This document shows, piece by piece, positions 47,571-63,643 of a stretch of DNA of 64,000 nucleotides (position 1 is its first letter; every line of letters begins with the position of its first letter). Position numbers and translations under genes: made by a program. The DNA comes from Domibacillus indicus. Its GTDB lineage: Bacteria > Bacillota > Bacilli > Bacillales > Domibacillaceae. The stretch is from positions 1 through 64,000 of the forward strand of contig NZ_JAMBOO010000013.1 in the NCBI RefSeq assembly GCF_023715895.1, in the 5' to 3' direction. A model generated the notes under the pieces. The model saw nothing but the letters and a program-made list of their open reading frames with translations, was not told the DNA's origin and made no database searches.

Positions 47571-47637
47571 CACTGCAGAGTTTAGAAAAGACTAAAAAGA
47601 AGAAATACATAAAATGAGGGCAGGGAGGGGAAGTAAC

Positions 47638-48765
47638 ATGTTTGAACTGACGAAAAATAACCAGCCGCTTTTTCCGGCTAATAAAGTGGAAGCAGCTGGC
47701 CAGCTGTTAGAACGAATCGAACAGGCAGAAAAAGAAAAGGAAGATCCGTTTTTTTATTTTAACGATAGAGACGTGCTTCATTACTACCTGTATCGCAGTA
47801 TCAATTTGAATAAAGACGCGGAGCGGTCAGACCGGACCATAAAAGAGTATGAGAGGGAGCTGTCCCAACTGATACAAAATTTGTTGCAGTTTCCGCATGA
47901 AATCGGTCTCGATATAAAGCAAATTGAAGAGGGATCGTTATTCAAGAGCCTGGCACCAAGACATCTGCGGCGTTATCAGACCTGGCTTGCCGAGGAAAGC
48001 CCATATGTAAAAACAAAAGGTCCTTATTCACCGGCGACTCTTGCGCGTAAAACGACCATCCTTAAGAGTTTCTTTCGTTTTTTGCACGAGAATCGCTATC
48101 TCAAGCAGCCAATTCACCAAGGATTGCGTCCGGCAACCGTCCGGAAGGATGATCGGCCAAACCGCGACCTAGGACCGAGGGAAGTGATTCAGCTGCTGGA
48201 TTATTATAGGGACAGTAATCCTATTATGTTTACTTTGATTCATGTGCTGGTGGGAACCGGCATGCGGAATGATGAGCTGTGCCGGTTAAAAGTGTCGGAT
48301 GTCCGGTTTGACCCCATCCTGGGTGGCTTTTATCTGCATGTGATCGGGAAGGGGAATAAACAGCGGGATATTCCGCTTCGTGATAAGGTAATGGACAGCA
48401 TTGTGCTATACCGGAAAATTCGGCTTCTGCCGGCAGACTTCCCAAGCAATAGTGATGAACCGCTGTTTCCGAACAGCCGGTGGAAAGCGTTCCGCCCGTC
48501 TTACTTTGCGACGATGTTGGGAGATGAAATCGAGAAGGTGCCGATCTTATCAATCCAGGCACGAAAAAAGAGAATTACGCCACACGAGTTCAGACACAGC
48601 TTTGCGATTATCAGCTATATGAACAACAGTGATGTGTATGCCATCATGCGTGCTTTAGGCCATGAAAAAATCGAAACAACGATGATCTATTTACAGAAGA
48701 TCATGGAGCGGGAACAGCATGTCGTTCATCAATGGAAAGATGATGCGCTGGGAAGGTATATATAA
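47638..48765 (+). CDS. Tyrosine recombinase (XerC/D-like)
   Basis: A 375-residue site-specific recombinase. The N-terminal SAM-like core-binding domain covers about 50-165 (RTIKEYERELSQLIQNLLQF, SPATLARKTTILKSFFRFLH) and the catalytic domain about 185-370. Catalytic residues are visible: Arg in GTGMRNDELCRLK, His-x-x-Arg in PHEFRHSFAI, His in LGHEKIETT and Tyr in MIYLQKI. I chose ATG 47638 with GGGAGGGG upstream. Its 3' 100 bases are duplicated at 49188-49286, suggesting that the gene end is an attachment or recombination site. Confidence 0.88.
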   Translation: MFELTKNNQPLFPANKVEAAGQLLERIEQAEKEKEDPFFYFNDRDVLHYYLYRSINLNKDAERSDRTIKEYERELSQLIQNLLQFPHEIGLDIKQIEEGSLFKSLAPRHLRRYQTWLAEESPYVKTKGPYSPATLARKTTILKSFFRFLHENRYLKQPIHQGLRPATVRKDDRPNRDLGPREVIQLLDYYRDSNPIMFTLIHVLVGTGMRNDELCRLKVSDVRFDPILGGFYLHVIGKGNKQRDIPLRDKVMDSIVLYRKIRLLPADFPSNSDEPLFPNSRWKAFRPSYFATMLGDEIEKVPILSIQARKKRITPHEFRHSFAIISYMNNSDVYAIMRALGHEKIETTMIYLQKIMEREQHVVHQWKDDALGRYI

Positions 48766-49426: not shown

Positions 49427-50911
49427 GTGAATAACTTGAAGTTATTAATAGTAGAACGTGATAATAATGAGAAAACGGCGATCGAGTGGCTTATTTCTGT
49501 CTATTCCCTTCCGATAAATACAGTATTCACTGCAAATAATTTGCGGGAAACAATTAATTTATTAGAAAAAGAAATACCTGATATTTTATATATAGAGTTA
49601 GATATGATTCGGAATGAAGACCGACCAACGATTGGAAAATACATAAATCGTTTTAACCCAAATGTGATAGCTGTTACAGCAGAAGCAACCTTTGAAAGGG
49701 CTAAACAAGCGATTGAATGGCGAAGTATAGAATTGTTAGTAAAGCCGCTAGATCCTCTGAAAATTAAACATTGCTTACAAACAGCTCTTTCATTTGCCCG
49801 TAACCAAAGGACTATTACTAAGCCTCTCACTCACGCTAATGAGAGTTATTCTTATCATTCTTTATTTTTACAAGAAGAGCAGCCTGCCATAAATATTGGA
49901 TTGATGCTGCTTCAAACAGAAGACATTCAGAAATTGCCAGAACTCATTAGATTTCTAGAGTACTATTCTTTTAGAAGACAACCGATTATTTTGCCGCTAA
50001 TAGACGGGGTTGTCTGTCTTTTTCAGTCTCCACTTCAGCATGTTAAAGAAGAAGCATCAAAAATATTACGAGAATGGGAAGTTGAAAATATTGAGCCAAT
50101 GGCGGCAGTTATTGTATATAACGATACAAACAATAAAACCGTACATGATATGTATCAAACTGCAAAAAAACTATTAGAAGTAACATTTTTTATTGGTTAC
50201 CGTCAAATCATTCTGCCTAAACCTAACTATGAACACTGGCAGGAAATAGATCCTTTTTTATCTCCAAAGGAGCAGCAGGAATGGATTGAAATGTTAGAGC
50301 AATTTGATAAACAAAAACTTAAAGAATGGATGCATAATGAGTTTTTAGATGTTGAAACACCCTTTCCTAATCCGGAGAAGTTACGAACGAGATTAACAAG
50401 CATTCTGGCCCAAATTAGAAGATTTATGAAAACGAATCAATTAGATCAAAGGGAAACAGAAAACTATTATAAAGAAATTTTTACTGATATCTTATATAAC
50501 CGAGTATTATACAGAATTGTACAGGAAATGCTGCTGTTTCTATACGAATTGATCGATCGGGCGATACAGTCAGAACAATTAGCAAAAAAAGATATTATTG
50601 AAAAGGGAGTCAGCTATGTTGAATCTTATTATTCGGATCACGATTTAACCCTTGAAAAAGTCGCCAAGGTTGTTAAGAGAAATCCAGCGTATTACAGTCA
50701 TTTATTAATGAAAAAATATGGAATACCTTTTAGTCAATTGGTGACGAATACAAGAATAAAAGAGGCAAAGAGACTGCTAACTGCTACAGAATTATCAATT
50801 AAAGAAATTTCACATCAAGTAGGTTTTCATAATCCAAATTATTTTTCACGCATATTCAAAGAATCCACTGGAATGCCCCCTCGCGAATACCGATGGAAGA
50901 AGCAGGATTAA
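49427..50911 (+). CDS. Receiver-AraC regulator with atypical receiver (first paralogue)
   Basis: A 494-residue regulator. Residues 1-120 have a CheY-like fold, but the phospho-acceptor position holds Glu57 (PDILYIELDM; Asp expected where Glu stands), while the conserved Lys is kept (LLVKPLDP). A middle region of about 260 residues follows (EIDPFLSPKEQQEWIEMLEQ). A complete two-helix-turn-helix AraC domain covers 395-494 (LTLEKVAKVVKRNPAYYSHL, IKEISHQVGFHNPNYFSRIF). The start could be GTG 49427 or TTG 49436. It is paralogous to the regulator at 54526. It precedes the BCCT and HutH-like genes and probably controls them. No histidine kinase is nearby, so signalling may not use phosphorylation. 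Confidence 0.82.
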   Translation: MNNLKLLIVERDNNEKTAIEWLISVYSLPINTVFTANNLRETINLLEKEIPDILYIELDMIRNEDRPTIGKYINRFNPNVIAVTAEATFERAKQAIEWRSIELLVKPLDPLKIKHCLQTALSFARNQRTITKPLTHANESYSYHSLFLQEEQPAINIGLMLLQTEDIQKLPELIRFLEYYSFRRQPIILPLIDGVVCLFQSPLQHVKEEASKILREWEVENIEPMAAVIVYNDTNNKTVHDMYQTAKKLLEVTFFIGYRQIILPKPNYEHWQEIDPFLSPKEQQEWIEMLEQFDKQKLKEWMHNEFLDVETPFPNPEKLRTRLTSILAQIRRFMKTNQLDQRETENYYKEIFTDILYNRVLYRIVQEMLLFLYELIDRAIQSEQLAKKDIIEKGVSYVESYYSDHDLTLEKVAKVVKRNPAYYSHLLMKKYGIPFSQLVTNTRIKEAKRLLTATELSIKEISHQVGFHNPNYFSRIFKESTGMPPREYRWKKQD

Positions 50912-51234
50912 ACAATTGAAATATCTTTAGAAAGCTAAAAAAAGTATAGAAACCTAAAGAAAAGATAAATATTTCGTTTTTTTATGTAAGAAAATATCAC
51001 AAAATTCAAAAATATTTAGTAATTTCTGAAAAGAATATGTCTATTTTAAAAAAAATGAATATTATATACTTTTCCTTAATTAAAGAAAAGTACAAAAGCA
51101 GAAAAACAATAATTTGATTCAAAGATGCTTGATGTTAAAATCCAGCATCTTATATTCGGATTATTATGAATTGTTCTGATTTTATGAATCACTTTTCTTT
51201 ATCGTTTTTTAATATACAAAGGGGAGGGGTACTG
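50912..51234. other. Intergenic region before the BCCT gene
   Basis: AT-rich, about 320 bases. It must carry the promoter for the BCCT-hutH pair, but I cannot single out a box with confidence. The ribosome binding site AAGGGGAGGGG lies at 51219-51229. Confidence 0.4.
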
Positions 51235-52827
51235 ATGTCATTAGCTACAAAAAAGGAGAATTCTACAGAAACACAAACACTGACAGATATGAAGCAGAAA
51301 ACACGGAAAGGTGTATTCTGGCCGGCTTTTCTTGTTGTAGGGGGCGGTGCAGCTCTTGGAATAGTTAATAATCAATTGTTAACTGAAATTTCTATGAATG
51401 GATTTGTAGGATCATTAAGGGGACTTGGATGGCTTTATCAAATTATATCTATTGTAGCGTTAATAATTGTAGCCATTGTTACGTTCTCAAAGTTAGGAAA
51501 TATACGTTTAGGCGGTCAGAAAGCCGAAGCAAAATATTCATTTGGAACATGGTTCGCAATGGCATTGACTGGCGGAATTGCAACGGGTGTAATCACTTAT
51601 GGAGTAAATGAACCGATTATTTATTTTAACAATATTTATGGAGAAATGGAACAAACAGGAGTTGAGCCAGGGACACCTCTTGCAGCAATTTTCGCGATGG
51701 GCCGCTCTTTTTACAACTGGTCATTTATCCCTTACGCTATGTATTCATTGAGCGGTTTAGTTGTTGCTTATATGTATTTTAATCGCAAAAAATCACTGTC
51801 TGTAACCGCAACGCTAACTCCATTGTTTGGAGATAGAATAACAAAAGGCGTTTGGGCAAACATAATCGATGTTTTATCTGTATTGGCAATTGCTCTTGGA
51901 TTGGCATCTTCTTTAGGAGCTGGACTTGCACTTGTCGGATCAGGAATTGAAGCAACTTACGGAATTCAACAAGGCCCCCTTGTCTGGCTGGCATTGACCA
52001 TTCTAATTACGGTCGTCTTTACTGTTTCCTCTTTAAAAGGACTAGATAAAGGGATTCGTATAATGGCAGATGCTAATGCAAAAGTTTTTTATGTTCTTCT
52101 TGCTCTACTAATAGTGATCGGACCAACCTTATATATTTTACGTACATCCACGGCAGGTCTAGGTTACTGGTTGCAAAACTTCTGGCAATGGGGTCTCGAT
52201 CCAATTGATATAGGCGGAGAAGCGCTAGTAATGTGGTGGACGTTATATGATTGGGCCATTTGGATTGCTTATGCACCATTAATGGGTGTTTTTCTAGCTG
52301 TCATTTCTTATGGACGTACACTTCGTCAGTTTATGATTGTTAACTGGATTATGCCTTCTGTATTCAGTATCATCTGGTTCGGTGTTTGGGGAGGAACAGC
52401 CCTACATTGGCAACAAAACAATATTGTTGATCTAGCAGACACCATTACAAATAGTGGAGCCGTAGCAGGATTATGGACATTCTTAGGCAATCTACCTTTA
52501 GGAATAATTATTATTCCAATTGTAATGTTGACATTAATTCTTTCATTTTCAACTGCTGCTGACTCGATGGTTCGTACAATTTCAGTATTATGCACTTCAA
52601 ATATTAGCCATGATGAAGAGCCTGCAAGTTGGAAAAAATTGATTTGGGCACTTTCTATTGGAATTATTGCATTCGTTATGGTTGCATTCGCTGGCGGAGA
52701 ACAAGGTGTTGAAGGTGTTAAATATCTGGCAGCACTAGGCGGATCGGCTGTTCTGTTTGTTTTTGTGCTACAGGTTATTTCTGCTATCAAGATGTTCTTT
52801 ATCGATAAAATAGAAGAGGGCGAATAA
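51235..52827 (+). CDS. BCCT-family (betaine-type) transporter
   Basis: A 530-residue twelve-segment transporter. The family core WTLYDWAIWIAYAPLMGVFL and the following ISYGRTLRQF correspond to the BCCT signature (usually W-x-x-x-x-W-A-W-W-I-S-W-x-P-F-x-G-x-F-I-A-R-I-S-x-G-R). Two of the usual aromatic positions are changed (Trp to Ile, Trp to Tyr), indicating an altered substrate box. BCCT proteins import trimethylammonium compounds such as glycine betaine, choline and carnitine. I chose ATG 51235 behind GGGGAGGGG. Only 12 bases separate it from the HutH-like gene, so it probably imports that enzyme's substrate, suggesting a betaine of histidine. Confidence 0.85.
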   Translation: MSLATKKENSTETQTLTDMKQKTRKGVFWPAFLVVGGGAALGIVNNQLLTEISMNGFVGSLRGLGWLYQIISIVALIIVAIVTFSKLGNIRLGGQKAEAKYSFGTWFAMALTGGIATGVITYGVNEPIIYFNNIYGEMEQTGVEPGTPLAAIFAMGRSFYNWSFIPYAMYSLSGLVVAYMYFNRKKSLSVTATLTPLFGDRITKGVWANIIDVLSVLAIALGLASSLGAGLALVGSGIEATYGIQQGPLVWLALTILITVVFTVSSLKGLDKGIRIMADANAKVFYVLLALLIVIGPTLYILRTSTAGLGYWLQNFWQWGLDPIDIGGEALVMWWTLYDWAIWIAYAPLMGVFLAVISYGRTLRQFMIVNWIMPSVFSIIWFGVWGGTALHWQQNNIVDLADTITNSGAVAGLWTFLGNLPLGIIIIPIVMLTLILSFSTAADSMVRTISVLCTSNISHDEEPASWKKLIWALSIGIIAFVMVAFAGGEQGVEGVKYLAALGGSAVLFVFVLQVISAIKMFFIDKIEEGE

Positions 52828-52839
52828 AGGAGAAAATAA

Positions 52840-54378
52840 ATGCTGATGAATCACACGAAAAAAGTAACCCTTGGTAATACTATAACTCTTGAAGAATTTA
52901 TAGAGGTAGTCCGTTTTGGCGCTTATGTCGAATTTTCTGAGGATTACTGTAAACGAGTGGAAAAATCCCAACAACTTGTTGGAAAATGGATAGAAGAAGG
53001 CAGAGTAATGTATGGGGTTAATACTGGCTTTGGTGCTCTTTCCAAAGAAATAATATCTTCAGAAGAAACGGCTCAATTACAAAAGAACATTCTTTTATCT
53101 CATGCTACCTCAGTAGGAGAACCGTTAGCAGAAGAAGACGTACGTGCCACCATGCTTATGATATTGCAAAATCTGGGACAAGGATATTCAGGAGTCCAGC
53201 TTGAAACGCTGGAGATGTATCGTCAATTTTTAAATCTTGGTTTAATTCCCTGGGCTCCAGGTGAAGGGTCAGTCGGCTATTTAAGCCCGGAAGCTCATAT
53301 GGCTCTTGTATTGATTGGTGAAGGAAAAGCATATATAAATGGACAACTTATGCCAGCAAGAAAGGCTTTAGAAAAAGCCGGACTAGCACCTATTGTTCTT
53401 TCTGCTAAAGAAGGACTGGCACTTATTAGTGGAACAACAACTCCAACAGGCATTGGAGCCTTGGCATTATTTGATATGCTAAAGGCCGCAACAGCAGCAG
53501 ATATAATTGGCGCAATGACCGTAGAAGTACTGAAGGGGACCACCCATGCTTTTGATGACCGCTTAATGAGTGTTCGTCCGCATCAAGAACAAAGAGATAC
53601 AGCAAGTAATGTGAGAAGAATATTAGATGACTCGATGATTGCAAAGAAATTTATAAATTATCGTTTACAAGATGCATTATCTCTCCGTGCAATTCCCCAA
53701 CTGCACGGAGCCGCAAAAAAAACACTAAAAGATGCTTTAAAGACCTTTGAAGTAGAGATTAATGCTTGTACAGATAATCCAATTCTTTGGCCGGATGAAG
53801 AAAACGCTGGGGCACTTTCAGGGTGTAATTGTGATTCATCATATGTTGGAATTGAATTAGATTCTATGTGTATTGCTGCAACCGCAATTGGCAAAATGTC
53901 AGAGCGAAGAAATAATCGTCTTATCAATGGTCAACTTTCTGAATATCCATCCTTTCTTATTCAAAAAGGAGGGATAAATTCTGGCTTGATGATCCCTCAA
54001 TACACACAGGCTGGCCTTTTAAACGAGATGAAAATATTGTCTCATCCTGCAACAGTAGACGCTATTCCGACCTCCGCTGATCAGGAAGATTATGTAGCGA
54101 TGGGATATAACGCAGCCAAAAAGGCACGAGAAATAGCTAAAAAACTTGAGTATGTTTTAGCGATTGAGTTGCTGTCTGTTTATTCCGCCCATCAATTTAT
54201 AGAAAGTGACTTGTTGCCCGGTTCTGCCTCAAGTGCTGTTTTAAATTTTATTTCTCAATTTGTACCGAACATGGAAGATGATATGTATCTACATCCTCAT
54301 ATAGAAGCGCTAAAAGAATTTATACATTCTGGTGAAATTATAAAATGTATAGAGAATGTAATAGGAAAGCTCCAATGA
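52840..54378 (+). CDS. HAL/PAL-superfamily lyase without MIO motif (HutH-like)
   Basis: A 512-residue homologue of histidine ammonia-lyase. Kept: Tyr58 in MYGVNTGFGALS, His88 in SHATSVGEPL, Arg283 in SLRAIPQLHG and the QEDYVAM Glu. Lost: the Ala-Ser-Gly that cyclises to the MIO cofactor (family text GSVGASGDLAPL; here GSVGYLSPEAHM, residues 143-153). The Asn of the following motif is Ser (LISGT, residue 197), and the Tyr expected at 280 is Leu (LQDALSLR). MIO makes ammonia a good leaving group; without it the enzyme probably eliminates a better one, such as trimethylamine from ergothioneine or hercynine. This fits the co-transcribed BCCT gene. Ordinary histidine ammonia-lyase activity is unlikely. 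Confidence 0.8.
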   Translation: MLMNHTKKVTLGNTITLEEFIEVVRFGAYVEFSEDYCKRVEKSQQLVGKWIEEGRVMYGVNTGFGALSKEIISSEETAQLQKNILLSHATSVGEPLAEEDVRATMLMILQNLGQGYSGVQLETLEMYRQFLNLGLIPWAPGEGSVGYLSPEAHMALVLIGEGKAYINGQLMPARKALEKAGLAPIVLSAKEGLALISGTTTPTGIGALALFDMLKAATAADIIGAMTVEVLKGTTHAFDDRLMSVRPHQEQRDTASNVRRILDDSMIAKKFINYRLQDALSLRAIPQLHGAAKKTLKDALKTFEVEINACTDNPILWPDEENAGALSGCNCDSSYVGIELDSMCIAATAIGKMSERRNNRLINGQLSEYPSFLIQKGGINSGLMIPQYTQAGLLNEMKILSHPATVDAIPTSADQEDYVAMGYNAAKKAREIAKKLEYVLAIELLSVYSAHQFIESDLLPGSASSAVLNFISQFVPNMEDDMYLHPHIEALKEFIHSGEIIKCIENVIGKLQ

Positions 54379-54426
54379 TATACATTTAAGAGCCATACTA
54401 TTACAAAATAAAATGTTACTTCCAAA

Positions 54427-54469
54427 AATCCTAACTTAATTAATCAAGTGAGTTAGGATTTACTTTTTT
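54427..54469 (+). terminator. Terminator after the HutH-like gene
   Basis: AAATCCTAACT pairs with AGTTAGGATTT around a loop, then ACTTTTTT. It separates the transporter-lyase pair from the following regulator. Confidence 0.7.
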
Positions 54470-54525
54470 AAAAGTATTCGAATAAATTAGATGTTATGAA
54501 AAAGTCACAAGAAAGAGGAAATAAA

Positions 54526-55995
54526 GTGGAAATACATTTAGTGGCAAAAAATCAACTAGAAGCCAACGGGATTAGATGGGTACTAGAGTCACATTTTACG
54601 GGAATTCAATTGCATATATGGGACACGATAGAAACATTTGAGGAGGGTGTACAAAAACAGCAGCCAGACCTCGTCATCTTAGATATGGATGGGTGGCAGC
54701 ATGAAAATGAAAAATTCAACTCAATTAGAAAAAGACTTGGAATTAAGTGGATAGGTATTTCGTCAGAAAGAATATTTCAAACCGCGTATAGCGCGCTTCG
54801 TTTTCGTGCAGAAGATGTTTTATTTCGTCCTTTTCTACCAACAGATTTAATTAAACTTATTCAACAGTTACGCTATCAAATGAGAAATAAAAAGCTTTCT
54901 TATTCAAATAGTATAACTAGAGAAGCCGAGGTATTCGATATTGATTACCCAGATCTTTTTTTAAAAGATAAAAGGCATACAAATTCAATATCAATGATCG
55001 CATTTTTAACGCCTTCTTCAGAAACACTTTATTTAGTGCACGATGCATTGCAACGTCACTCATTTACGGGGAACAAACGTATACTTGTTTTTTCTGATTT
55101 TATTTTATGTGTTCAGGAAACTAAGGAAGAAGCTCTAATTAAAGAAGAGTACCAGACATTTCTGACGCGCTGGAAAGAACATATTGATGAGCCGCTTGCA
55201 ATTGTTATTAAGATTGCACCGGCAGGTCACTCATTAAAGGATATATATGAGCAAACACGTCAATTAACAAGGAGAATTTTTTTTGAAGGATATGACATTA
55301 TTTTAGCGGAAGAAGAAGAAGTTTACTATAGAGAAATAGATCCTTTCCTTACTCCTTTGGAACAGCGTCAATGGATTGAAATGCTTGAAAAAAGAGACAT
55401 AAATGCAATCCGAAGTTGGATAGAAAATGAATTCCTAACCTTTCAGCCCCCTTATCCAGATCCAGAAATCATTCGAATTCGGCTGACGAGCGTGCTGGCA
55501 CAGATTCGCCGCTACATAAAATCATATGATCTTCAGAGCACATCCTGGGAAGCAATCTATCACAAGGTTTTTCAGTACATTGTACAGAATCCTGTCATTT
55601 ATCAAATTGTTCAGGAATTGCTGGTATTCACGACCCGGTTACTCCAACAAAACAATACACATTTAAATGAAGAGCCACGCTCCCTTGTTGAAAAAGCAAG
55701 AGAGTTGATTGAGAGTAACTATTGGGATGCTCAGTGGAATTTAACAGCATGTGCTAATGCACTTCGTGTTAATAAAAGTACTCTCAGCCGTCGTTTTGCA
55801 ACTGAATCTAGCCAATCGTTTCGTGATACGTTACATCAGATGCGTATAGGAGAGGCTAAAAAACTATTACAAGAAACAGATTTACCCTTGGAAGAAATTG
55901 CACGATTAACAGGTTATTCTCACCAAACTTATTTTAATTCTAAATTCAAATTGCTAGAAGGCTGTACCCCGTTAGTTTATCGACAAAAATTATAA
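54526..55995 (+). CDS. Receiver-AraC regulator with atypical receiver (second paralogue)
   Basis: A 489-residue paralogue of the regulator at 49427, with the same three-part layout and a near-identical middle motif (EIDPFLTPLEQRQWIEMLEK; RLTSVLAQIRRYIKSYDLQ). Its receiver has the acceptor Asp (PDLVILDMDGW, about Asp53), but the conserved Lys is Arg (DVLFRPFLP) and the N-terminal acidic pair is missing, the opposite defects to its paralogue. The AraC domain occupies about 390-489 (LTACANALRVNKSTLSRRFA, LEEIARLTGYSHQTYFNSKF). I chose GTG 54526, well spaced from AGAGG, over ATG 54496. Placed between the lyase and the hutU-hutI operon, it probably activates the latter. Confidence 0.82.
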   Translation: MEIHLVAKNQLEANGIRWVLESHFTGIQLHIWDTIETFEEGVQKQQPDLVILDMDGWQHENEKFNSIRKRLGIKWIGISSERIFQTAYSALRFRAEDVLFRPFLPTDLIKLIQQLRYQMRNKKLSYSNSITREAEVFDIDYPDLFLKDKRHTNSISMIAFLTPSSETLYLVHDALQRHSFTGNKRILVFSDFILCVQETKEEALIKEEYQTFLTRWKEHIDEPLAIVIKIAPAGHSLKDIYEQTRQLTRRIFFEGYDIILAEEEEVYYREIDPFLTPLEQRQWIEMLEKRDINAIRSWIENEFLTFQPPYPDPEIIRIRLTSVLAQIRRYIKSYDLQSTSWEAIYHKVFQYIVQNPVIYQIVQELLVFTTRLLQQNNTHLNEEPRSLVEKARELIESNYWDAQWNLTACANALRVNKSTLSRRFATESSQSFRDTLHQMRIGEAKKLLQETDLPLEEIARLTGYSHQTYFNSKFKLLEGCTPLVYRQKL

Positions 55996-56015
55996 TGAGA
56001 AATCAGAAAAGTGAG

Positions 56016-56068
56016 ATAAATTATAAAATAGGCAAAAAAACAGAAAAATTATGCAATAAATTATAAAA
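56016..56068 (+). promoter_or_regulatory. 13-bp direct repeats upstream of hutU, candidate AraC sites
   Basis: ATAAATTATAAAA occurs at 56016-56028 and again at 56056-56068, exactly 40 bases apart (about four helical turns), 78 bases or more before the hutU start. AraC-type proteins commonly bind such direct repeats. The surroundings are AT-rich, so chance is possible. Confidence 0.4.
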
Positions 56069-56146
56069 AGATCATTATATTATAATCTGAATATTAAGTG
56101 AAGTGTAATAAAATTACTACATACAAAACATAGGAGGGAAAGTTAC

Positions 56147-57808
56147 ATGAAAACCACAGCAGAAGAAAAAGTAGTACGTTATCGAGGAACAACACTTAAT
56201 ACGAAAGGTTGGGAACAAGAAGCGGTTCTTAGAATGCTAATGAACAACTTAGATCCAGAAGTTGCCGAACATCCAGAAAAGTTAGTTGTATATGGGGGAA
56301 TAGGAAAAGCCGCAAGAAACTGGGAATCTTTTGATCAAATCGTAGCATCATTAAAAGAGTTAGAAAAAAATGAAACATTGCTGATTCAATCAGGGAAACC
56401 GGTAGCCATCTTTAAAACTCACGAAGCAGCACCACGCGTACTATTAGCCAACTCTAACATTGTGCCTGCGTGGGCAAATTGGGACACATTCCATGAACTT
56501 GATAAAAAAGGACTAATGATGTATGGCCAAATGACAGCTGGAAGCTGGATTTATATTGGCAGCCAAGGAATTGTACAAGGCACTTATGAGACATTTGCAG
56601 AATGTGCGAAGCAGCACTTCAATGGGACACTAGAAGGTACAATTACCGTAACAGCTGGACTTGGCGGCATGGGAGGCGCACAGCCTTTAGCAGTAACCAT
56701 GGCAGGTGGTGTTGTGATCGGAATTGATGTAGATCGAAGCCGGATCGAAAAACGCATTGAAACCCGGTACTGCGATGTACTTTCTGAAACGTTGGATGAA
56801 GCGATTGCGTTAGCAGAAGAAGCAAAACAAGCAGGTAAAGCTCTTTCGATTGGACTGCTTGGCAATGCAGCTGAAGTGCTTCCTGACATGATTAAACGAG
56901 GCTTTATTCCCGACATTGTGACAGACCAAACATCTGCTCACGATCCATTAAATGGGTATCTTCCTATCGGAATGTCTATGTCAGAAGGCGAAAAACTCCG
57001 CACAGAAGATCCAGAAGAGTATGTAAAACAATCAAAAAAAAGCATGGCCGTACATGTTCAATCAATGCTACAGATGCAAAAACAAGGTGCGGTTGCATTT
57101 GATTATGGAAATAATATTCGACAGGTTGCCTTTGATGAAGGGGTAGAAAATGCTTTTAATTTTCCGGGATTTGTTCCAGCCTACATCCGCCCACAATTTT
57201 GCGAAGGAAAAGGGCCGTTTCGCTGGGTAGCCCTCTCAGGTGATCCAGAAGATATATATAAGACCGACGAAGTGATTTTAAGAGAGTTTGCTTATAATGA
57301 ACACTTGTGCAATTGGATAAAGATGGCGAGAGAAAAAATTGAGTTTCAAGGCCTTCCAGCTCGTATTTGCTGGTTAGGCTATGGAGAACGCGCACGTTTT
57401 GGAAAAATCATTAATGAAATGGTAGCTTCTGGTGAACTCTCAGCTCCAATTGTTATTGGACGGGATCATTTAGATGCTGGTTCTGTTGCTTCACCAAATC
57501 GTGAAACAGAAGCCATGAAAGATGGCAGTGATGCAGTAGGAGACTGGCCTATACTAAATGCATTAGTGAATACAGCTGCTGGCGCAAGCTGGGTATCTGT
57601 TCACCATGGCGGTGGTGTAGGAATGGGCTATTCACTTCATGCAGGAATGGTTGTTGTCGCTGATGGTACGGAGGAGGCGGCTCAGCGCCTTGAGCGGGTT
57701 TTAACAACCGACCCTGGTATGGGTGTCGTTCGCCATGTGGATGCAGGTTATGATTTAGCAATTCAAACTGCGAAAGAAAAAGGCATGAATATTCCAACTC
57801 TAAAGTAA
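56147..57808 (+). CDS. hutU: Urocanate hydratase (or thiourocanate hydratase)
   Basis: A 553-residue urocanase of standard length. The NAD-binding [60 protein letters not shown], the active-site Cys region [17 protein letters not shown] and [20 protein letters not shown] are all present. Urocanase adds water to urocanate to give imidazolonepropionate using tightly bound NAD+. In this cluster, if the first step releases trimethylamine from ergothioneine, the substrate would be thiourocanate; with hercynine it would be urocanate itself. It is the first gene of a tight operon to 63643, starting behind AGGAGGGAAAG. Confidence 0.92.
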
Positions 57809-57822
57809 AAGGTTGAGATAAA

Positions 57823-59145
57823 ATGACGGAAATTTTATATATCAAAAGAGCTTCCCAAGTTATTACAGTCAGTGGAGGCAGCCAGAAGCCAAAAACAGGA
57901 CAGGAAATGTCTGAAATCGGTGTAATTGAAAATGGCAGTGTAATAGTAGAAGGAAATCAAATTCGTTTTGTCGGCTCTGATAGAGAAGCTGAAAAATATG
58001 TAAATACTTTAAGCGAACCAGTAACTGTTATCAATGCTGAAGGAAAAATCTTAACCCCAGGATTGATTGATCCTCACACACATATTGTTTTCGCAGGAAG
58101 CCGTGAAAAAGAATTAGAAATGCGCTTAAAGGGTGCAAAATATATAGATATTCTAAAAGCTGGTGGTGGTATTTTAAGTACCACCACTGATACAAGAAAA
58201 GCTTCTGAAGAACATTTGATTGAGGAAACACTTAAACGGTTAAATCGTTTTCTACAGTATGGTGTAACAACGATTGAAGCAAAAAGCGGATATGGATTAA
58301 CAGTAGAAGACGAATTAAAACAACTTAGAGTTGCAAAGAAATTAAATAAGCAGCATCCTATTGATCTTATTTCCACTTTTATGGGAGCTCATGCAGTGCC
58401 GGCTGAATATAAGGAAAGTCCTGAGGAATTTGTAAAACTTGTAGTAGAGGAAATGCTGCCACAAGTTGCACAGGAAAAATTAGCAGAATTTTGTGATGTA
58501 TTCTGTGAAGAAGGCGTATTTACGATTGAACAGTCTGAATACATCCTTCAGGAGGGAAAAAAGTGGGGCTTAATTCCAAAAATCCATGCGGATGAGATTG
58601 TTCAATTTGGCGGTGCTGAGTTAGCGGCAAAGATAGGGGCTATTTCTGCAGATCATTTATTAAGGGCATCAGAAAATGGGATTAAGCAAATGGCAGAGCA
58701 GGGTGTTATAGCGGTCTTATTGCCTGGGACAGCATTCTTCCTTATGGCGGAACCAGCTAATGCTAGAAAAATGATTGAATTGGGTGTTCCTGTCGCTCTT
58801 TCAACGGATCGTAATCCAGGCTCATCACCTACCGAGTCATTGCCGTTTATTATGAATTTAGCATGTCTCACCATGAAAATGACGCCGGAAGAAGTATTAA
58901 CAGCTTGTACAATTAATGCTGCGCATGCCATTAATAGAGCGAGCGAAATTGGAAGTATTGAAGTGGACAAGAAAGCAGACTTTGTCTTGTTTGATGCTCC
59001 TAATTATCAAACACTCCAGTACAATTATGCCGTTAATCTTGTTGACACAGTATTTAAAAATGGAAAAGTAGTCGTAAAAGGTGGTGCTATTGTTGAAAGT
59101 GAAGAATCTTTGCATCAATATAGCTCGGCTGAAAACAGACATTGA
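57823..59145 (+). CDS. hutI: Imidazolonepropionase-like amidohydrolase
   Basis: A 440-residue metal-dependent amidohydrolase of the HutI family. Metal and substrate residues are recognisable: PGLIDPHTHIVFAGSREKEL, EAKSGYGLTVEDELK, FMGAHAVPAEY, KIHADEIVQFGGAELA and ALSTDRNPGSSPTESL. In the HutI sequences I remember, the last motif reads TDFNPG; here Phe is Arg. Normal HutI opens the imidazolone ring to formiminoglutamate. The change may fit an oxo-thioxo ring or simply be drift. It starts 14 bases after hutU and overlaps the next gene by about 50 bases, showing tight coupling. Confidence 0.85.
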   Translation: MTEILYIKRASQVITVSGGSQKPKTGQEMSEIGVIENGSVIVEGNQIRFVGSDREAEKYVNTLSEPVTVINAEGKILTPGLIDPHTHIVFAGSREKELEMRLKGAKYIDILKAGGGILSTTTDTRKASEEHLIEETLKRLNRFLQYGVTTIEAKSGYGLTVEDELKQLRVAKKLNKQHPIDLISTFMGAHAVPAEYKESPEEFVKLVVEEMLPQVAQEKLAEFCDVFCEEGVFTIEQSEYILQEGKKWGLIPKIHADEIVQFGGAELAAKIGAISADHLLRASENGIKQMAEQGVIAVLLPGTAFFLMAEPANARKMIELGVPVALSTDRNPGSSPTESLPFIMNLACLTMKMTPEEVLTACTINAAHAINRASEIGSIEVDKKADFVLFDAPNYQTLQYNYAVNLVDTVFKNGKVVVKGGAIVESEESLHQYSSAENRH

Positions 59146-60355
59146 AGAACTCGGAAAATTCGGGAAGAATGCTAAAGGTGGCCTTGATAGGACCACCTTT
59201 ACTCCTTCTGAATTAGAAGCAAGAGAATGGCTTAAAGAACGTCTTCATAAGTTAAAGCTGGCAATAAGAATAGATCAAGCAGCAAACATATGGGCCAAGC
59301 GCCCAGGTCAGGAAGCAACTCTTCCCAGTATTTCTTTCGGATCACATATTGATACCGTTCCCAATGGAGGGAAATATGATGGAGCGTTGGGAGTTCTCAT
59401 CGCACTTGAAGTAATGAGAGTGTTAGAAGAAAGTCATATTTCAACACGGCATCCATTAGAATTAGTTTCTTTTAGCGCAGAAGAGCCAAATCCTTTTGGG
59501 TTGTCTACTTTTGGCAGCCGAGCAATCAGCGGGAAGTTAAAAAAAAGCGATATAACAAATGTAACTGACTCTGAAGGAACAAGGCTAGTTGATGCCCTAA
59601 GAAGTGCGGGTGGTGATCCGGAGAATTTTGAAAAAGCAGTACGTAATCCAGCTGAATTAAGCGCATTTTTAGAAGTGCATATTGAACAAGGGAAAAGACT
59701 ATTAAACCGTTCTATTCCAGTTGGTGTGGTAACTGCTATTACAGGAATTTACCGAGAAAAAATATCAGTATATGGAGAAGCAAATCATGCTGGTACGACA
59801 CTCATGGAAGATAGGAAAGATGCATTAACAGCAGCTTCAGAAATTATTTTATCCTTAGAACGCGTCAGCAGTGCACATCCCTCTAATGAAGTAGTTGGAA
59901 CAATTGGAAAAGTTGATGTTTCTCCTAATGCACCGAACATAATACCGGAGAAAATCGAAATGATATTAGAAATTAGAGGAAAATCGTCTTCTGAGATATA
60001 TGAGGTGTTAAAGAAATTTGATACGGATTTAATAAAAATTAGAGAAAGCCGACCCGTCCAAATAAAGCGAAAAGTCATTTTAGATCAAACCCCTGCACCT
60101 ATGAATGAATTGGTAGTTAAAACTATTCAAGACTGTGCGGAGTCGCTAAACTATCCCTCTTATTCGCTTGGAAGTATGGCAGGGCACGATGCTACTCACA
60201 TGGCATCGCTAACCAAAAGTGGGATGTTGTTTGTTCCGAGTTTAGATGGTAAAAGTCACTGTCCGGAAGAAGAAAGCAGATTAGAAGATATAGAAAAAGT
60301 CGCAAATGTTTTATTGCATACGATTCTTTCACTGGATCAAAAACTTGATGTATAA
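59093..60355 (+). CDS. M20 amidohydrolase, carbamoylase/allantoate amidohydrolase type (first)
   Basis: A 420-residue M20-family enzyme of the HyuC/AllC/AmaB group. Metal and catalytic residues are visible: FGSHIDTVPNGGKYDGALGV (His, Asp), SFSAEEPNPFGLSTFGSRA (Glu pair), LEVHIEQGKRL (His) and GKSHCPEEE (His). The dimerisation domain is in the middle (ISVYGEANHAGTTLMEDRKD). Such enzymes hydrolyse N-carbamoyl amino acids, allantoate or related amidines. I chose TTG 59093 behind AAAGGTGG; GTG 59081 is an alternative. It overlaps hutI. In a hut-like pathway the natural substrate would be N-carbamoyl- or N-formyl-glutamate, replacing the absent hutG. Confidence 0.82.
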   Translation: MKVKNLCINIARLKTDIEELGKFGKNAKGGLDRTTFTPSELEAREWLKERLHKLKLAIRIDQAANIWAKRPGQEATLPSISFGSHIDTVPNGGKYDGALGVLIALEVMRVLEESHISTRHPLELVSFSAEEPNPFGLSTFGSRAISGKLKKSDITNVTDSEGTRLVDALRSAGGDPENFEKAVRNPAELSAFLEVHIEQGKRLLNRSIPVGVVTAITGIYREKISVYGEANHAGTTLMEDRKDALTAASEIILSLERVSSAHPSNEVVGTIGKVDVSPNAPNIIPEKIEMILEIRGKSSSEIYEVLKKFDTDLIKIRESRPVQIKRKVILDQTPAPMNELVVKTIQDCAESLNYPSYSLGSMAGHDATHMASLTKSGMLFVPSLDGKSHCPEEESRLEDIEKVANVLLHTILSLDQKLDV

Positions 60356-60369
60356 AAGGGGATAAGAAC

Positions 60370-61695
60370 ATGAGTGTTTTATATACTGCTGATTGTATGT
60401 ATGTAAATAATCAGTTTAAAAAAGACCAGGGCATCTATGTAATGGATGGAGTTATTAAAGAAATAGGATCAAAATACAAATTACTGGAAAAATATAAAGG
60501 GATCCAAACCGTTGACTGGAAAGGAAAAGCCCTTTTACCGGGTACAGTTAATGCCCATAATCATTCTTTTCAAAGCTTATTAAGAGGGATCGCCGTTGAC
60601 CGCCCTTTTTTAGAGTGGCGTGACCAGGCGCTTTATCGTTATACACCATTCTTGGATGAGGAAGCTATTTACACAGGAGCATTATTTGCATTTGGGGAAA
60701 TGTTAAAGTATGGAGTAACAACAGTAAGTGACTTCTTTTATGTTCATAATGGTGGAATAGCTACAGATGAAGCTGTTATTCAGGCTGCTAAGGATTTAGG
60801 AATTCGCCTCGTGTTTGCGCGTACAATGTATGACTGGGAAGGCGCTCCTGCCAGCTACCGTGAGACTGTCAGTGAGGCAGTAAGTAGAACAAGGCAATTA
60901 GCGATTAAATATCAGGGAGATCCTATGGTATCCATTCAGCCTGCACCGCACAGTCCGCATGCAGCATCACCAGAAATGATTCAAGCTGGCCATCGCTTAG
61001 CAAAAGAATTAGGTACACCATTCCACATTCATGTAGCCGAAGAAACATTTGAAGTGGATGAAACACTTGAAAAGTATGGACTGCGACCTGTTCACTATTT
61101 AGATTCACTGGGCGTAGTTGATGAAAGCATGATTGCTATCCATCTTGTTTGGCTGGACGACAGCGAAATCGAACTATTGGGACGTAAGAAAGCTTCTTTA
61201 GCTTATTGTCCATCAAGTAATATGTTTTTATCAGATGGTGTTACTCGTATTCCTGATTTGCTTCAAGCAGGCGTACGTGTTTCATTAGGATCAGATGGGG
61301 CATGCAGTAATAACCGAATCAGTATTTTTGAAGAAATGAGAATGTGCTCACTTCTCCAAAAAGTAACTCGTTTGGACGGTACATGCATAAATGCCAAGCA
61401 GGTGTATGATATGGGTACAAAAATAGGTTCTGAGTTACTGCAGCTTCCTACTGGAGAAATTCGAGAAGGAATGAAAGCAGACTTTGTGACGCTAGATTTA
61501 AATGACCTTTCCCTTTCACCTAAATCAGAATTGTTTGCAAATGTGGTGTATTCCCTTCAGCCCAATGCCATTGTAGACGTAATTGTAGATGGAAAGCTGA
61601 TTGTAGAAAACCGAAAGATAACAACTATCCCCGAGAAAAGTATCGTAACTCGGGTTGACAGCTTAATGGAAAAGTGGAAAAGCGTAACCAACTAA
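60370..61695 (+). CDS. Amidohydrolase, HutF-like (COG0402 type)
   Basis: A 441-residue TIM-barrel amidohydrolase of the deaminase/chlorohydrolase group. Metal ligands are VNAHNHSFQSL (H-x-H), FHIHVAEE (His), IAIHLVWLD (His) and SLGSDGACSNN (Asp). FLEWRDQALYRYTP and SDFFYVHNGG recall formimidoylglutamate deiminase (HutF: W-R-D-x-M-Y-R, F-H-Y-V-H). If HutF, it yields N-formylglutamate plus ammonia; if the substrate is ergothioneine-derived, it could open or desulfurise the thioxo-imidazolidine ring. It follows the first M20 gene by 14 bases with AAAGGGGAT. Confidence 0.75.
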   Translation: MSVLYTADCMYVNNQFKKDQGIYVMDGVIKEIGSKYKLLEKYKGIQTVDWKGKALLPGTVNAHNHSFQSLLRGIAVDRPFLEWRDQALYRYTPFLDEEAIYTGALFAFGEMLKYGVTTVSDFFYVHNGGIATDEAVIQAAKDLGIRLVFARTMYDWEGAPASYRETVSEAVSRTRQLAIKYQGDPMVSIQPAPHSPHAASPEMIQAGHRLAKELGTPFHIHVAEETFEVDETLEKYGLRPVHYLDSLGVVDESMIAIHLVWLDDSEIELLGRKKASLAYCPSSNMFLSDGVTRIPDLLQAGVRVSLGSDGACSNNRISIFEEMRMCSLLQKVTRLDGTCINAKQVYDMGTKIGSELLQLPTGEIREGMKADFVTLDLNDLSLSPKSELFANVVYSLQPNAIVDVIVDGKLIVENRKITTIPEKSIVTRVDSLMEKWKSVTN

Positions 61696-61747
61696 TTCCT
61701 TCTTTCTGCATTATTGTTCTAATAAAGAAAAGGGCTGAGTTTAAAGA

Positions 61748-62965
61748 ATGATTAATAAAGATCGTTTAAGAGAAAGATTACTTGAGTTAGCGCAAATTGG
61801 CGGGAATGCCACAGATGGATGGACGAGGTTAGCATTTACCAAGGAAGACAAATTAGCCAGAGGCCTTGTTAAAGGTTACATGAGAGAAATGGGCCTTAAA
61901 ATCACATGTGACAACGCCGGGAACATTATTGGAAGTTATGGGAACCCTACAAATAGTCCAGTTATCGCTATGGGTTCCCATATCGATACTGTACCAAACG
62001 GTGGAATGTTTGATGGAGCTTTGGGTGTTATTAGCGCATTAGAAGTAGCGCAAACGATTATTGAAAATAAATTAAATGTGAATTATCCCTTAGAAGTAAT
62101 AATATTTGCGAATGAAGAAGGATCTAGATTTAACAATGGTTTAACAGGGAGCAGAGCTATTTGTGGAAGTTTCTCTCAAGAGGAATTGCAAATAGAAGAC
62201 AATAACGGGATTTCATTTTATCAAGCAGTTCAAGAGATGGATCTAAACCCTGATAAAGTTTATGAAGCTAGAGCGTTTGAAAATAAATACAAGCATTTTC
62301 TTGAAATTCATATTGAACAAGGAATTGAACTAGAAAAAGAGCATAAAAGAATAGGTTTAGTGAATTCTGCAGCTGGCCAGGTAGTATTGAAATGCACAAT
62401 ATTCGGAAGACCGGATCATGCTGGAGCAATAAAAATGACACAAAGAAAAGATGCTCTCGTAGAGGCTTCAAAACTCATTACAGAAATTCAGCAGATATCT
62501 TTAAAAATGGGCGGTCATTTTGTTGCCACTGTAGGAAAATTAAATGTTTTCCCTAATAGCATTAATACTGTGCCTGGTAACGTTGAATTCTTTATTGATA
62601 TACGAGACATATCTTCAGATAAGTTAAATCGGGGAATAGAGGTCATTAGCAATACTATTAGCAATATTTCGGGGGAATTCTCTTACTTCTTGGAAGAGGT
62701 TGAGAATGAATTACCTGCTTTTTTTTCAAGTAGACTTCTTGATTTAGGAAAAGAGATTTGCGAAAAGAAAAACTATCCATATAAAGTCCTTTCAAGCGGA
62801 GCTTGTCATGACGCTCAAGTAATGACAACTATTACAGATTCAGCTTTGTTTTTTATACCAAGTATTAACGGATTGAGTCACTGTCCAGAAGAAAATGTGC
62901 ACTGGGAGGATGTATTTCTAGGAGCAGAATTTTTGTTGGAGATGGTTTTAAATGCTTCGGAATAA
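61748..62965 (+). CDS. M20 amidohydrolase, carbamoylase/allantoate amidohydrolase type (second)
   Basis: A 405-residue paralogue of the enzyme at 59093 with the full metal set: MGSHIDTVPNGGMFDGALGV, FANEEGSRFNNGLTGSRAI, LEIHIEQGIEL and LSHCPEENVHWED. The N-terminus ELAQIGGNATDGWTRLAFT is typical of the HyuC/AllC group. Two such enzymes in one operon suggest two consecutive amide or amidine hydrolyses, or different stereoisomers. It has a 52-base gap to the previous gene and a weak ribosome binding site (AAGGGCTGAG). Confidence 0.82.
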   Translation: MINKDRLRERLLELAQIGGNATDGWTRLAFTKEDKLARGLVKGYMREMGLKITCDNAGNIIGSYGNPTNSPVIAMGSHIDTVPNGGMFDGALGVISALEVAQTIIENKLNVNYPLEVIIFANEEGSRFNNGLTGSRAICGSFSQEELQIEDNNGISFYQAVQEMDLNPDKVYEARAFENKYKHFLEIHIEQGIELEKEHKRIGLVNSAAGQVVLKCTIFGRPDHAGAIKMTQRKDALVEASKLITEIQQISLKMGGHFVATVGKLNVFPNSINTVPGNVEFFIDIRDISSDKLNRGIEVISNTISNISGEFSYFLEEVENELPAFFSSRLLDLGKEICEKKNYPYKVLSSGACHDAQVMTTITDSALFFIPSINGLSHCPEENVHWEDVFLGAEFLLEMVLNASE

Positions 62966-63019
62966 TAAAAATACATAGTTATCAATTAATTAAGTTAAAG
63001 GTTGATCAGTTAATAGAGG

Positions 63020-63643
63020 GTGATAATTATATCTTGCTCATTTAGAATCATAAAAAGAGAAGATACTTCTGTAAAAACATGGGCCGGGGGGACAACAACT
63101 GAATTAGCAATTTTTCCTGAAAACGCAGATTATTATAAACAAAATTTCTCGTGGAGACTAAGTGTTGCAACAATTGACCAAGAAGAATCCTTATTTACTT
63201 CTTTGCCAGGTGTGCATAGAATCACCTTGATAACAGATGGTGAAATGTATTTGGAGCATGATGGACATTATAATAAATTTTTAAAAACTTTTGAGCAGGA
63301 TGCTTATGCTGGGGAATGGATCACTCGGAGTAAAGGGAAAGTAAAGGATTTTAATATAATGTTAAAAAATAATTGTGAAGCGGAGGTAGAAAGCATTACG
63401 CTTGAAGCGGGTACACACAGGATTTTTTATGCTGAAAATAAATCTTCTTTTAATACAGTAACAGACTTTATTTATTGTTTGCAAAGGGAAGTTGTAATCA
63501 AAGTTTCCAAAACAAAATTATTAACCCTGCAGGAAGGAGATTTATTGCTAATAAATAGACAAATAAAAGAAAGATTGTATATTGATTTTTATAATAACAG
63601 CAATGAAAAATTGACAATAATTAAAGGTGAAATATTTATTTAA
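63020..63643 (+). CDS. hutD: HutD-family protein
   Basis: About 207 residues matching HutD, a cupin-fold protein found with hut genes: TWAGGTTTELAIFP near the N-terminus, then FSWRLSVATIDQEESLFTSL and PGVHRITLITDGEMYLEHDG, the typical W-R-x-S-x-A and F-x-G-x-x-R pattern. HutD has no proven enzymatic activity; in Pseudomonas it appears to limit hut expression, perhaps by binding formimino- or formyl-glutamate. The start is uncertain: the GTG at 63020 has no ribosome binding site before it, and AGAGGGTG fits no standard in-frame start. It ends the operon. Confidence 0.75.
   Translation: MIIISCSFRIIKREDTSVKTWAGGTTTELAIFPENADYYKQNFSWRLSVATIDQEESLFTSLPGVHRITLITDGEMYLEHDGHYNKFLKTFEQDAYAGEWITRSKGKVKDFNIMLKNNCEAEVESITLEAGTHRIFYAENKSSFNTVTDFIYCLQREVVIKVSKTKLLTLQEGDLLLINRQIKERLYIDFYNNSNEKLTIIKGEIFI

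Follow-up and report, generated by a model that had tools for sequence, protein, structure and literature searches.

Why would a genome that holds a complete histidine utilization (hut) operon also carry a hut-like operon that joins a BCCT transporter to a lyase without the 4-methylideneimidazole-5-one (MIO) triad? The question is raised by a 64,000-nucleotide stretch of Domibacillus indicus DNA (positions 1 to 64,000 of NZ_JAMBOO010000013.1, RefSeq assembly GCF_023715895.1; hereafter the window), which is part of contig 44 in a 5.08 Mb draft genome. Ten open reading frames (ORFs), all on the plus strand, span positions 49427-63643. A sequence-only reading had named them as a BCCT transporter, a lyase, a urocanase, a HutI-like enzyme, two M20 hydrolases, a HutF-like enzyme, HutD, and two regulators, and family scans agreed. 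It had also claimed that hutG, hutM, and hutP were missing; family-model scans gave no match to them among the ten operon proteins, and they were not seen in the ORFs onward to position 78000 of contig 44, which were inspected by eye with no family search. Nine of the ten genes occur in identical order and at 70-95% identity in Bacillus sp. 03113 (L177), where only the second M20 gene is missing, so the gene set is not a chance assembly.

We consider it probable that this operon is dedicated to the use of hercynine (N-alpha-trimethylhistidine, or histidine betaine). The BCCT transporter would import hercynine, and the lyase would remove trimethylamine from it to give urocanate; the electrophilic MIO that histidine ammonia-lyase requires may be dispensable here because a quaternary amine leaves readily by itself. 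HutU and HutI would convert urocanate to formiminoglutamate, the HutF-like deaminase would convert this to N-formylglutamate, and the first M20 enzyme (M20a) would take the place of HutG and release glutamate and formate. Two AraC-type regulators would govern the operon apart from the ordinary histidine operon. A trimethylated histidine had been proposed before, with ergothioneine as the first choice and hercynine as the alternative; the transporter and the lyase fit that general proposal, and it is the alternative that our results favor.

The lyase and the transporter

The lyase gene (positions 52840-54378), which would encode a hercynine trimethylamine-lyase, matched PF00221 (Lyase_aromatic) at 534.5 bits (cut-off 27.3). 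Its MIO triad is deleted, as had been noticed earlier: the protein reads GSVGYLSPEAH, compared to GSLGASGDLAPLAH in the genome's own HutH. Among solved structures, histidine ammonia-lyases (HALs) scored best (316 bits) and ergothionase scored 156; for the lyase of an ergothioneine-type operon (L122), ergothionase came first (504 bits) and the next structure scored 248. The window lyase fell under the cut-off of the hutH equivalog TIGR01225 (510 versus 539) and over that of the broad NCBIfam HAL subfamily model PRK09367 (531 versus 524). The copies on Priestia and Smac51 plasmids (L019 and L020) are annotated as histidine ammonia-lyase, labels that are probably wrong.

The set of lyases used for comparison contained 127 rows, of which 77 (71 distinct genes) carried this shortened motif, here called GYL type, 30 (23 distinct genes) carried an intact MIO motif, and 20 (all distinct) were of the ergothionase type; ORFs shorter than 470 amino acids were excluded, namely the split lyases of L092 and L178 and the short ones of L086, L170, and L187. 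In a tree built without the motif columns, 37 GYL rows formed one clade with an SH-aLRT support of 94, or 99.9 when two long-branch rows (L184_3 and L182_5) were omitted. A separate clade with a support of 100 was formed by 14 ergothionase-type rows, including the characterized ergothionase of Treponema denticola. The window lyase sits in the GYL clade and outside that of ergothionase. Of the two affiliations that the sequence-only reading had weighed, it is nearer to the HALs by score, but it belongs to a MIO-less clade of its own. An approximately unbiased (AU) test did not reject the GYL and ergothionase-type lyases as one group (p = 0.677), and since a single MIO-less group is permitted, the idea of two separate MIO losses was not upheld and is not claimed here.

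Active-site columns were compared across the 72 rows of GYL subfamilies A (44 rows, 39 distinct genes, five rows being the same gene twice), B (17 rows), and C (11 rows), with the window lyase in subfamily A, and with a HAL column of 28 rows (21 distinct genes) that omits the two long-branch rows. The MIO triad is deleted in all 72 rows, while the Tyr, Gln, Arg, and Glu of HAL are kept in all 72 and the His in 70. Leu replaces Tyr280 (Pseudomonas putida numbering) in all 72 rows and in 19 of the 20 rows of the ergothionase type. Asn195 is replaced by Ser in 33 of the 44 subfamily A rows and, again, in 19 of 20 ergothionase-type rows, with a mixed picture in subfamily B. Passages of a study of Geobacillus kaustophilus HAL (PMC11432326) describe mutants Y52F, H82L, N194D, and E411D as inactive on histidine; in their account the Asn, Gln, and Arg bond the ammonium and anchor the carboxylate. 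Set beside these data, the active-site columns indicate that the window lyase keeps most of the substrate-holding groups and is altered at its triad, Tyr, and Asn positions.

The transporter gene (51166-52827), the proposed hercynine importer, matched PF02028 at 377 bits (cut-off 27). Its best solved relatives are the trimethylamine transporter 8zw8 and then BetP, and it misses both the betaine equivalog (309 versus 650) and TIGR00842 (289 versus 408). In rows of at least 65% identity, as well as in two transporters beside ergothionase-type lyases, transmembrane segments 4 and 8 read W....Y..Y and DWA.W, aromatic residues that, going by BetP, presumably cage the trimethylammonium group. Of 40 subfamily A loci, 32 have a BCCT gene within 3 kb of the lyase and in the same orientation, at 56-88% identity in 30 of them and 32-33% in the other two. 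L188 and L189 each have an ergothionase-type lyase, and no GYL lyase, next to a BCCT of 50-52% identity.

Relatives of the locus in other genomes

One scan of the genome_contigs collection yielded 49 loci, 40 of which held a lyase of subfamily A. These 40 lyases are 57-85% identical to that of the window (the one in L187 ends before the motif), and their hosts, going by record names, are Bacilli, clostridial groups, and one record named Lutibacter. Within the 40 loci, hutI was present in 14, hutU at 60% identity or more in 12, and hutG in 11; three had a MIO-type HutH (that of L149 being a fragment recognized by its identity) and three an ergothionase-type lyase. Three further stretches contained distant urocanases (34-45%). 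A urocanase was present in all 24 of the lyase-bearing genomes chosen, compared to 71 of 121 genomes from the class, of which 68 exceeded the cut-off (Fisher p = 2.3e-5), a comparison in which the genomes are non-independent and many of the 24 lie outside the class. Of 397 genomes of the order, 19, among them the window's own, had GYL lyases of any kind at E 1e-115; across the class, matches at this threshold, some of them of MIO type, occurred in 27 of 398. In Indiicoccus explosivorum (L178, 10001-11532, the same place as L092), the lyase is split into two open frames between neighbors that look whole.

Two kinds of arrangement bear on the substrate. In L141 and L142, a BCCT gene and a GYL lyase gene are inserted within a hut operon that has its own MIO-type HutH, and because they share this single operon, both lyases would feed one HutU. 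In L158, L167, and L169, all from anaerobes, one locus contains lyases of both the GYL and the ergothionase type (the pair in L158 includes a contig-end fragment typed by its motif), and L158 and L167 also hold a BCCT of 65-68% identity. The simplest reading of these gene neighborhoods would be a single type of carrier that takes up trimethylated histidines and serves two lyases, one for ergothioneine and one for hercynine. Xanthine-dehydrogenase-type molybdenum hydroxylase subunits stand beside the ergothionase-type lyases of L158 (10657-14937), L167 (2916-8113), and L188 (4299-11500), those of L158 and L167 having been checked with Pfam; they are perhaps an alternative desulfuration route. 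Subfamily C is varied, with an MFS carrier in 3 of 10 loci, a BCCT in 5, and hutU in 8; three of its BCCTs (35-36% identity) lie within 3 kb of the lyase and those of L104 and L105 (75-76%) further along the gene string.

Several observations weigh against hercynine or against the route drawn for it. Eight of the 40 subfamily A loci have no BCCT gene within 3 kb, only the 12 mentioned above have a hutU of at least 60% identity, and BCCT transporters also carry other betaines. In subfamily B, the carrier is of the MFS type in 17 of 17 loci (hutU in 10), and 10 of the 17 (L075-L083 and L093), in more than one gene order, encode an N-methyl-L-tryptophan-oxidase-like flavoenzyme, two copies of which scored 461 and 462 versus 257 bits. 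Subfamily C retains the HAL Asn195 in 11 of 11 rows, and Tyr280 persists in two of the four outlying GYL rows. Within the window itself, the HutF-like protein misses both NCBIfam HutF cut-offs (251 versus 362 and 205 versus 413), and the second M20 enzyme (M20b) is not accounted for by the proposed route.

Because subfamily B uses an MFS carrier and holds the oxidase-like enzyme, the substrate may differ between branches, and the flavoenzyme may hint at the handling of partly methylated histidines. Both features speak for the explanation that survives best after our own, in which the lyase would act on another N-alpha-substituted histidine (mono- or dimethylhistidine, or an opine-like N-carboxyalkyl histidine) and still yield urocanate. 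For the operon in the window we regard this as unlikely: the carrier of its subfamily is a BCCT in which the aromatic residues for trimethylammonium are largely kept, and by general chemistry secondary and tertiary amines are worse leaving groups than a quaternary amine. Hercynine is the substrate we prefer.

A GYL lyase is found on an Agrobacterium plasmid (L021, 7965-12430) and on a Sodalis plasmid (L022, 8001-12401) with an ABC transporter, a CoA transferase, a 3-hydroxyacyl-CoA dehydrogenase, and an enoyl-CoA hydratase; these two lyases perhaps act on another aromatic amino-acid betaine. We put forward only tentatively the broader proposal that the whole GYL clade consists of MIO-free lyases that remove trimethylamine from amino-acid betaines, with that of histidine used by the window's branch and another aromatic one, such as tryptophan betaine, by the Agrobacterium and Sodalis branch.

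A proposed route from urocanate to glutamate

The genes for HutU, the urocanate hydratase (56147-57808; TIGR01228, 993 bits, cut-off 375), and HutI, the imidazolonepropionase (57823-59145; TIGR01224, 503 bits, cut-off 298), both pass their models, and HutU shares 82% identity with the second HutU that the genome encodes. A thiourocanate hydratase from a real ergothioneine operon (L125) also passes the HutU model (707 versus 375), so that model alone does not discriminate between the two; the thiourocanate hydratase model NF058530 does, and window HutU misses it (711 versus 930). At every one of the 48 columns fixed differently between 39 HutU proteins and 17 thiourocanate hydratases, the window protein has the HutU residue. 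A closely related protein would be expected to give this result, since members of the HutU set were chosen for being over 70% identical to known ones, including that of the window; seven urocanases of 33-53% identity were kept out of both sets. Judged by these columns and models, the window urocanase is a true HutU, and because the HutI model is also passed, the lower pathway should begin at urocanate. In L095 (9076-15635) and L097, a GYL lyase lies near two urocanase paralogues, one of which, at 52% identity, belongs clearly to neither type (28 and 9 of the 48 diagnostic columns).

These results bear directly on the ergothioneine route that had been the first choice of the sequence-only reading. 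There the lyase would be an ergothionase, the HutU homologue would hydrate thiourocanate, and the M20 enzymes would hydrolyze N-carbamoylglutamate. Consistent with it are the absence of MIO from the lyase, the related BCCTs (50-52%) adjoining ergothionase-type lyases, the single MIO-less group permitted by the AU test (p = 0.677), and the high scores of both M20 enzymes with the ErtE model NF058540 (M20a, 437; M20b, 350), although these lie under its cut-off of 520. The L125 operon, the one ergothioneine operon scanned, passes the models for the hydratase (1022 versus 930), the desulfurase (599 versus 440), and ErtE (560 versus 520); its own hydantoinase misses the ErtD cut-offs (458 versus 650 and 442 versus 600) and its second M20 enzyme that of ErtE (391 versus 520). 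Model scans of the window's operon proteins, by contrast, gave no match to a thiohydantoin desulfurase or to a dihydropyrimidinase-type ErtD. Together with the type of HutU, the position of the lyase outside the ergothionase clade, and the three loci in which an ergothionase-type lyase stands beside a GYL lyase, this led us to reject ergothioneine as the main substrate, along with the N-carbamoyl step assigned to the M20 enzymes; we rate that route as very unlikely. Thiourocanate hydratase was over the cut-off in 26 of 295 genomes of a Paenibacillus-like family (name inferred; that of G045), and in 398 genomes of the phylum NF058530 gave 0 matches at E 1e-250, a threshold at which its controls were silent too.

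In the proposed hercynine pathway, two downstream enzymes could complete the breakdown. M20a (59081-60355; NF006771, 454 versus 399) is a candidate N-formylglutamate or formiminoglutamate hydrolase; its ORF as listed overlaps hutI by 65 bp, and the true start may be a little downstream. The HutF-like amidohydrolase (60370-61695; Amidohydro_1, 220 bits, cut-off 25) is a candidate formiminoglutamate deiminase. Aligned with one annotated HutF (L203), it keeps the HutF letters HxFQ, WRD, FxYxH, and HIHxAE, residues that we take to bind substrate. Because it scores under both HutF cut-offs and the solved structures nearest to it are of other deaminases and hydrolases, we infer the sequence of the last two reactions, and which enzyme performs each. 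M20b (61748-62965; NF006771, 434 versus 399) is 34% identical to M20a, the two having M20 Pfam scores of 76 and 79 bits, respectively (cut-off 24.6), and has no counterpart in L177 or in L139, a Niallia taxi megaplasmid. HutD (63020-63643; PF05962, 99 bits, cut-off 25) closes the operon.

Other genomes show where the HutF-like enzyme and M20a belong. The Niallia taxi megaplasmid carries hutP, hutH with ASG, hutU, hutI, M20a, and the HutF-like gene, the last four 89, 81, 71, and 85% identical to those of the window, and its HutH passes the hutH model (717 versus 539). The same block recurs as hutP, hutH (ASG), a distant urocanase (36%), hutI, M20a, and the HutF-like gene in L197, as hutU, hutI, M20a, and the HutF-like gene in L198, and as hutH (ASG), hutU, hutI, and the HutF-like gene, without M20a, in L200; L199, L201, and L202 have M20a and the HutF-like gene with no HutH within the stretch. 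No HutG relative was found in the six stretches L197-L202. From this block behind HutH without HutG relatives, it follows that the HutF-like enzyme, usually with M20a, occupies the place of HutG. At E 1e-100, the HutF-like enzyme occurred in 7 of 239 genomes of the order, the window's own counted.

The operon in its genome and among known systems

Both regulators combine a receiver-like domain with an AraC-type helix-turn-helix. Regulator 1 (49427-50911; HTH_18, 72 bits, cut-off 33.6; Response_reg, 26.5, under 30.2) has an orthologue of 82% identity that precedes the BCCT gene in L177. Regulator 2 (54496-55995; HTH_18, 73 bits; receiver-like score under the Pfam cut-off) is 48% identical to the regulator of the canonical hut operon. 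The BCCT and lyase genes are 12 bp apart and the genes from hutU through hutD are spaced by -65 to 54 bp, with gaps of 117-254 bp around both regulators. Promoter and terminator scans did no better than shuffles (37 versus a mean of 48.6, and 12 versus a mean of 9.7).

The canonical operon lies on contig 158 and is complete (RR-AraC, hutU, hutI, hutG, hutP, and hutH with ASG; names assigned by eye, hutH and hutU also by Pfam), its proteins being 95-98% identical to the hut proteins of Domibacillus sp. PGB-M46 (L180). The sequence-only reading had held that the absence of such an operon, in a host growing on histidine through the window's operon, would tell against its proposed route; since contig 158 carries one, that objection does not arise. 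A duplicated and divergent histidine operon, with a lyase that is degenerate or acts on histidine without MIO, is the least probable explanation: the lyase does pass the broad HAL subfamily model, but it misses the hutH equivalog, a canonical hutH with ASG stands elsewhere in the genome, and the shortened motif marks a conserved clade with catalytic Tyr, Arg, and Glu intact, on which grounds a decayed hutH was rejected.

In the same-species genome G012, the single match to the window lyase (41%) was that genome's HutH, so the window's operon is an accessory trait. With a GC content of 37.5%, it is poorer in GC than its flanks (39-40.5%) and the region of the ordinary hut operon (43.5%). An XerC/XerD-like tyrosine recombinase (identified by eye) is encoded upstream at 47614-48765, and given this recombinase and the absence of the lyase from G012, the operon may be mobile. 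A search of G012 for the empty site returned 39 scattered matches and no clean junction, the flank matching scattered repeats there. Downstream of the operon (L017, 2155-6566), a GntR-type regulator, a class III CoA transferase, an HMG-CoA-lyase-like protein, and a GntP-like permease (all identified by eye) seem to make up a distinct organic-acid pathway.

Fungi and soil bacteria make hercynine, from which ergothioneine is formed directly and which also arises when ergothioneine is oxidized; we know of no enzyme that degrades hercynine. Searches for a hercynine lyase, hercynine catabolism, or hercynine degradation found none in the open-access literature, most subscription journals, which may hold a description, lying outside that search, and hercynine and urocanate were mentioned together there only in teixobactin work. 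If the proposed pathway is correct, the operon supplies the missing sink for hercynine, a microbial source of trimethylamine is masked by the name histidine ammonia-lyase, and the lyase offers a test case of how an enzyme of the HAL/phenylalanine ammonia-lyase (PAL) family can dispense with MIO. The HutF-like enzyme and M20 would then end histidine breakdown in some Bacilli that have HutG-less operons. Should the betaine-lyase proposal for the GYL clade also hold, amine methylation would, throughout the HAL/PAL family, be an alternative to MIO as a means of activating the leaving group.

The nearest known precedents are ergothionase and the pathway for ergothioneine. The passages of PMC13405746 that concern ergothionase state its reaction, its lack of MIO, and its occurrence in few genera. 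Like ergothionase (PDB 6s7j/6s7q), the window lyase belongs to the HAL family, lacks the MIO triad, and has Leu for Tyr280 and, as is often the case, Ser for Asn195, and two ergothionase-type copies adjoin a BCCT of 50-52% identity. It differs in its separate clade, its motif (GSVGYLSPEAH rather than the GSVGAADIT type), its identity of only 24-32% to ergothionase-type rows, and its partners, which are not the thiourocanate hydratase and desulfurase found in L125. The ergothioneine operon of the G045 family, of which one was tested, shares with the window a lyase, a urocanase-family hydratase, and M20 enzymes, but it has a thiohydantoin desulfurase, a dihydropyrimidinase-like enzyme, and a hydratase of the thiourocanate type. 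With HutH, the lyase shares about 32-43% identity to MIO-type rows, the Tyr, His, Gln, Arg, and Glu, and, as proposed, urocanate as product, but not the MIO triad, Tyr280, or a score over the equivalog cut-off. The operon as a whole resembles the hutPHUIG operons of Bacillales and the HutF branch in its HutU, HutI, and HutF-like deaminase, and departs from them in an upper part made of a BCCT transporter and a MIO-less lyase and in the replacement of HutG by a deaminase and an M20 enzyme.

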